From contig CAMBZJ010000012.1 in the NCBI GenBank assembly GCA_945872365.1, positions 1 to 64,000 of the forward strand: a stretch of 64,000 bases of DNA. The letters run 5' to 3'. Positions 17,289 to 17,366 of this stretch are shown in pieces. Below the pieces are notes generated by a model. The model was given only the letters and a program-made list of their open reading frames with translations, was not told the DNA's origin and did no database searches. The translations under genes and the position numbers were made by a program. This DNA is from Klebsiella pneumoniae. GTDB taxonomy: Bacteria > Desulfobacterota > Binatia > UBA12015. Each line of letters begins with the position of its first letter. Within the stretch, counting starts at the first letter, position 1.

Positions 17289-17317
17289 TTGACTTCCCGC
17301 CCGCGTCGGGCTATGCC
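17289..17317 (+). promoter_or_regulatory. Sigma70-like promoter of the pyr operon
   Basis: TTGACT (17289-17294) and TATGCC (17312-17317) are separated by exactly 17 bases, with the -35 box nearly consensus. Transcription would begin near 17324, giving a leader of about 43 bases that contains the PyrR-type hairpin and the pyrR ribosome binding site. Confidence 0.55.
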
Positions 17318-17336
17318 ACCGCCGAACCCTTTTAAT

Positions 17337-17360
17337 CGGATCCAGCGAGGTCCGGAAAGG
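17337..17360 (+). promoter_or_regulatory. Candidate PyrR-binding RNA hairpin next to the pyrR ribosome binding site
   Basis: The RNA can form a 6-bp stem CGGATC/GGTCCG (17337-17342 with 17349-17354, one U-G pair) closed by the hexaloop CAGCGA. This fits the known PyrR-binding consensus with its CNGNGA hexaloop flanked by RUC and GGY. The purine-rich GAAAGG (17355-17360) that would bind 16S rRNA abuts the hairpin, 7 bases before the ATG. Binding of PyrR-UMP here would block translation initiation, the mode known from mycobacteria, unlike the attenuation seen in Bacillus. No terminator follows in the leader. Confidence 0.7.
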
Positions 17361-17366
17361 TGTGCG

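Follow-up and report, generated by a model that had tools for sequence, protein, structure and literature searches.

The DNA analysed here, a stretch of 64,000 nt called the window below, carries a pyrimidine biosynthesis operon headed by pyrR, and directly in front of this gene lies a small hairpin resembling the RNA element that PyrR recognises. The question raised by the locus is the level, transcription or translation, at which such an element would act. We conclude that the hairpin is very probably a PyrR binding loop laid over the Shine-Dalgarno (SD) sequence of pyrR, through which PyrR charged with UMP would repress pyrR translation. Control of the pyrimidine genes in this uncultured bacterium is probably exerted by a block of translation, while in its relatives the same hairpin appears to serve for stopping transcription.

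The hairpin, its promoter and the operon

The features of the locus are collected in Table 1. The sequence-only reading had described a 6-bp stem, CGGATC/GGTCCG, closed by a CNGNGA loop, and all parts are found at the positions it gave. This upper stem and its loop are not the whole hairpin: GAAAGG, which had been read as the ribosome binding site following the hairpin, is correctly placed and keeps its role as SD, but it lies within the hairpin, as the 3' arm of a lower stem (CCUUUU/GAAAGG) which had been overlooked. The two stems are separated on the 5' side by a 3-nt bulge (AAT), and six bases separate the end of the hairpin, which is also the end of the SD, from the pyrR ATG at 17367.

Table 1. 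Features of the pyrR leader and operon in the window.
Feature	Position	Strand	Evidence
-35 element TTGACT	17289..17294	+	direct reading
-10 element TATGCC, 17 nt after -35	17312..17317	+	direct reading; weak match
Predicted complete PyrR binding loop (whole hairpin)	17326..17360	+	RF00515 match, models R1 and R2, covariation
Lower stem 5' arm CCTTTT	17328..17333	+	pairs with 17355-17360; pair probabilities 0.57-0.98
Upper stem 5' arm CGGATC	17337..17342	+	pairs with GGTCCG 17349-17354; pair probabilities 0.83-1.0
Hexaloop CAGCGA (CNGNGA)	17343..17348	+	direct reading and loop conservation
Upper stem 3' arm GGTCCG	17349..17354	+	direct reading
GAAAGG, pyrR SD and lower stem 3' arm	17355..17360	+	direct reading; predicted unpaired probability 0.00-0.03
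pyrR, 209 aa	17367..17996	+	NCBIfam NF003549, 242.8 bits (cut-off 138)
pyrB, aspartate carbamoyltransferase	18000..19007	+	Pfam OTCace_N, OTCace; 3 nt after pyrR
pyrC, dihydroorotase	19000..20379	+	Pfam Amidohydro_1, DHOase; 8-nt overlap with pyrB
carA	20391..21527	+	Pfam CPSase_sm_chain, GATase; 11 nt after pyrC
carB	21533..24763	+	Pfam CPSase_L_D2, D1, D3, MGS; 5 nt after carA
recG	24756..27440	+	Pfam RecG_wedge, DEAD, Helicase_C; 8-nt overlap with carB

RNAfold gives the stem-loop structure at -13.7 kcal/mol. As a single sequence its stability is unexceptional (z -1.22; 20 of 200 shuffles equally stable), so that the case for the hairpin rests on comparison. The fold predicts that the hairpin alone, with no protein bound, hides the SD nearly completely. 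In a hypothetical longer transcript starting at 17230 other pairs replace the lower stem, and the model therefore requires a transcript start near 17324.

Such a start would be provided by the promoter TTGACT-N17-TATGCC that the sequence-only reading had assigned to the operon; it is present, and its -35 element is well kept, although its -10 element is poor. TTGAC precedes the loop in twelve of the thirteen genomes with a loop in the window's family (referred to as f1) and TTTAC in the remaining one, while at the place of the -10 element these relatives mostly have TACC... Across the class and the phylum, 109 of 137 genomes have TTGAC no more than 60 nt upstream of the loop (four of the 141 had too little upstream sequence), with 72 occurrences at a distance of 33-38 nt, and the best promoter score upstream of loops averages 7.7, compared to 5.8 in shuffled sequence. 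A strict promoter scan reported no site, since TATGCC lacks the final T. The fairly fixed distance of the -35 element points to a start at, or a few bases before, the hairpin, and we propose a leader which would consist of little more than the hairpin itself. An in-frame ATG at 17313 was rejected as start of pyrR, as it is located inside the -10 element and the loops of relatives lie in different frames with respect to pyrR.

Residues 11 to 181 (approximately) of the window PyrR match solved PyrR chains including 1non, 1a3c, 1ufr and 1w30, which we take to be the proteins of B. caldolyticus, B. subtilis, Thermus and M. tuberculosis respectively; judged by its sequence, the protein is a canonical PyrR. 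The short spacings and overlaps within the 10 kb operon make a single coupled unit from pyrR to recG plausible. Next to the operon, Pfam recognises five S1 domain stretches in the product of one gene (15726-17171, + strand) and a membrane H+-pyrophosphatase as the product of another (29067-31607, - strand).

Conservation and distribution of the loop

The Rfam PyrR model (RF00515), proposed as a check by the sequence-only reading, aligns end to end with 17324-17372 at 27.4 bits (E 0.13), below its gathering cut-off of 54 bits. The window has both stems of this model of 115 positions, the bulge on the 5' side and the CNGNGA loop, and according to the alignment lacks the long 3' part beyond the loop. 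Across the window's own genome this is the only match at E<=10 (E 0.137). At the same threshold nine of fourteen control genomes were also matched, two of them above the cut-off, and the Rfam score taken alone is therefore weak.

Two dedicated covariance models were used: R1, built from 43 sequences including the window, and R2, from which all sequences of f1 were held out. The window loop scores 51.6 bits with R1; R2 finds it in the genome at 42.8 bits and E 6.9e-6, as sole match at E<=1. No second loop was detected elsewhere in this genome at E<=0.05 (R1) or E<=1 (R2); a hairpin at 12583-12601 (15.5 bits, E 0.24 with R1) fits the upper stem only and was discarded as a chance match. Within f1, R2 gives one match each in thirteen of fourteen genomes, always just upstream of pyrR, and the fourteenth genome, which is 63% complete, has neither a PyrR match nor a loop.

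Both helices covary. Over all sequences 66 cells have both sides of a pair changed, against 20.1 +/- 5.1 in shuffles (none of 500 as high), and 61 cells remain without f1 (15.0 +/- 5.1 in shuffles); 94.0% of the cells are paired, but only 68.0% or 62.8% when the partner is slid by one column. Lack of conservation of the loop bases had been named as one finding that would speak against the element, and the conservation holds: in 141 genomes the fixed bases are near-invariant, C in 140, the first G in 138, the second G and the A in 141, followed by a further G in 141. As the detecting model itself favours those bases, more weight falls on the covariation and on the two N positions being free. 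In f1 the fixed CNGNGA bases are intact in all thirteen loops, while the stems covary and the two N positions vary. The pyrR ATG follows the loop by 6-8 nt in each of these thirteen genomes, and the starts, counted from the loop, are spread over the three reading frames, from which it follows that the loop is non-coding.

Of the 148 class genomes 138 have a PyrR match and 101 a loop; in a sample of 297 genomes from the phylum the numbers are 254 and 53. A loop is present in 100 of the 138 class genomes that have PyrR, while the other 38 give no loop match at E<=0.05; the site is therefore not needed by PyrR in every case. Family f105 has eight genomes with PyrR, none of which has an R1 loop, which may mean that the loop has diverged there or that regulation is of a different kind, and most members of families f5, f6 and f106 encode two or three PyrR-like proteins each. 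Some genomes have more than one loop. In G018 (locus L191; G018:C43:222293-222329, - strand) a second PyrR loop, followed by a leader open reading frame (ORF) starting with TTG, precedes a separate pyrC, named by eye from the sequence as dihydroorotase, which ties the element to pyrimidine genes. In G198 (L210; G198:C116:14705-14741) the second loop is followed by a leader ORF starting with ATG and a terminator, at the end of the contig.

Leader layouts among relatives

The layout between loop and pyrR could be classified for 97 of the 101 class genomes with a loop (G355, G405, G323 and G336 were dropped, having no pyrR in the fetched stretch) and for 44 of the 46 genomes with a loop considered elsewhere in the phylum (G178 and G246 were dropped, their loop having been missed by the position-weight scan); the second loops of G018, G198 and G302 were excluded from the counts. 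Among 80 named loci the loop was on the correct strand in 66, and in 52 of those it lay no more than 420 nt before pyrR.

The sequence-only reading had seen no attenuator, and the terminator scan agrees, as no terminator-like site was found in 17160-18060; an attenuator inside pyrR was considered and discarded, no terminator having been found there. The family behaves in the same way: all thirteen f1 genomes have neither leader ORF nor terminator, and the distance from the end of the loop to codon 13 of PyrR is 36-44 nt in each. In the 84 other class genomes this distance is at least 84 nt and an intrinsic terminator lies in between in 79; terminators are equally found in 42 of the 44 genomes elsewhere in the phylum, which brings the total to 121 of the 128 classified genomes outside f1. 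Five class loci outside f1 (L045, L059, L227, L233 and L238) have a long leader in which no terminator is recognised by the criteria used, and may be intermediates or cases of a missed terminator.

Of the 121 terminator-type leaders, 110 have a start codon 4-10 nt beyond the loop, while the next four windows of equal width contain 15, 13, 18 and 29. The ORF opened by this codon reaches the 5' side of the terminator (within 15 nt) in 108 of 110 cases; when the other two frames are read, 126 of 220 do so. In 38 of the 110 the ORF ends on or directly beside a start codon that is in frame with pyrR. The comparison of related leaders thus finds the same loop before pyrR, but outside f1 it masks the SD of a leader ORF which runs into or up to a terminator. 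Such an arrangement would be expected where PyrR covers the leader SD and in this way allows the terminator to form.

In a tree of 128 non-identical full-length PyrR proteins (a quick method, unrooted and with a warning for long branches) the thirteen f1 proteins form one group (support 99) amid class members with terminators. The direct layout, in which the loop covers the pyrR SD, requires three changes on this tree, against a mean of 15.3 after shuffling (none of 500 as low). The three groups are f1, Nonomuraea together with Microbispora (Streptosporangiaceae, Actinomycetota) and one Trueperaceae MAG, so that the direct layout outside f1 rests on three named loci. The simplest reading, in which the direction of change is taken from the nesting of f1 in an unrooted tree, would be that f1 lost the leader ORF and the terminator, a layout that is presumably ancestral.

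Taken together, we consider it rather likely, if by no great distance, that the PyrR loop serves as a portable mask for an SD and that what lies under it decides between transcriptional and translational control. In the majority of this Gram-negative class and part of the phylum the masked element would be a leader ORF, and its translation would melt a terminator. In f1 a single ancestral loss would have put the unchanged mask onto pyrR and turned attenuation into translational repression, and Actinomycetota and Trueperaceae would have arrived there separately. On the same reading the Rfam cut-off hides at least the window copy and may hide many more.

Proposed control and comparison with known systems

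When UMP is plentiful, UMP-loaded PyrR would bind the loop, lock the lower stem and hide GAAAGG from the ribosome, and PyrR would thereby repress its own translation. The repression would pass on to pyrB, pyrC, carA, carB and perhaps recG through the tight spacing and the overlaps, or alternatively through decay or polarity of the untranslated mRNA. The binding of PyrR, the response to UMP and the coupling along the operon are what we infer, and the least certain step is the effect of the protein itself: with the SD predicted to be hidden even without it, PyrR would have to act by stabilising a mask which ribosomes can otherwise open. In the relatives, where the loop masks the SD of the leader ORF, translation of the leader should decide whether the terminator forms. 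Site, structure, conservation and overlap with the SD can be read from the sequences, as can the absence of a terminator in the window and in the thirteen f1 leaders, and the comparison with relatives thus lends support to the translational rather than transcriptional feedback proposed initially.

Other explanations differ in how far they depart from this. The loop may bind PyrR while control is exerted mainly by polarity, a blocked first gene exposing the mRNA to Rho-dependent termination or RNase. The length of the operon and the apparent use of transcription termination by relatives are in its favour, but there is no intrinsic terminator in the region scanned nor in the f1 leaders, and the first block would in any case fall on the pyrR SD, with a difference only in the later consequences; we regard this as unlikely. 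It is considerably less probable that the hairpin masks the SD independently of PyrR, as structural damping or an RNA thermometer, or that it is an attenuator relic no longer responding to PyrR. Such a view would account for the strong predicted occlusion without protein and would suit the loss in f1 of the relatives' leader ORF and terminator, but it is at odds with a canonical PyrR and with fixed loop bases kept in all of f1 while the stems covary and the N positions vary.

That the hairpin stands next to the SD by mere chance has next to nothing left to recommend it. Its ordinary folding energy and its Rfam score under the cut-off would agree with this, but the held-out model R2 refutes it, with a match in the window at a very low E value and the same placement in the thirteen f1 genomes with PyrR. 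The preferred reading remains a PyrR binding loop acting on the translation of pyrR.

In the accessible part of a 2026 review, PyrR control is presented as Gram-positive and the pyr genes of Gram-negative bacteria as more commonly subject to other mechanisms (PMC13328217). Against this picture, 100 of the 138 PyrR-carrying genomes of a single class, whose MAGs are filed under Deltaproteobacteria or Binatota, have a canonical PyrR loop. Sun et al. 2013 catalogued 211 RF00515 sites across 255 genomes, and the part of that paper available gives no mechanism for the window's class (PMC3766115). Our search, outside which most subscription papers lay so that absence is unproven, found no literature on translational control by PyrR or on PyrR leader ORFs in the class or phylum. 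Related families with and without a terminator, sharing the same hairpin and orthologous PyrR proteins, represent a natural experiment on a regulator moving between transcriptional and translational control.

The binding loop is the same as that of the Bacillus subtilis PyrR attenuation system, with a lower stem, a UAA side bulge, an upper stem and the CNGNGA loop, as far as the part of the source available describes it (RF00515; PMC4347634). Unlike the B. subtilis leaders, in which a terminator competes with an antiterminator, the window has neither, and the proposed effect is on the SD and not on RNA polymerase.

For Thermus ZO5 a ribosome-coupled PyrR attenuation was reportedly proposed in 1997 by Van de Casteele et al., with the loop over the SD of a leader ORF which continues into a terminator. 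This resembles the relatives of the window, while the window itself has no leader ORF and no intrinsic terminator before pyrR. The Trueperaceae MAG (L136, JAABTL010000027.1; Deinococcota) has the direct layout, though the Thermus proposal uses a leader ORF; this would be another change of mode inside one phylum and may be testable there.

The translational mode of PyrR has been demonstrated in the phylum Actinomycetota, where Fields and Switzer are said to have described in 2007 the PyrR-dependent translational repression of the Mycobacterium smegmatis pyr operon. As is reported for M. smegmatis, the thirteen f1 genomes have the loop at the 5' end of the pyrR mRNA, over the SD of the first pyr gene, with no terminator in between. 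The actinobacterial parallel drawn from the sequence at the outset fits well, as Nonomuraea and Microbispora share this layout. The lineage is nevertheless unrelated, and the actinobacterial and f1 direct forms fall in separate clades of the PyrR tree. Direct repression by PyrR is thus already known from M. smegmatis, and the window adds another case, with an informative change of mode.
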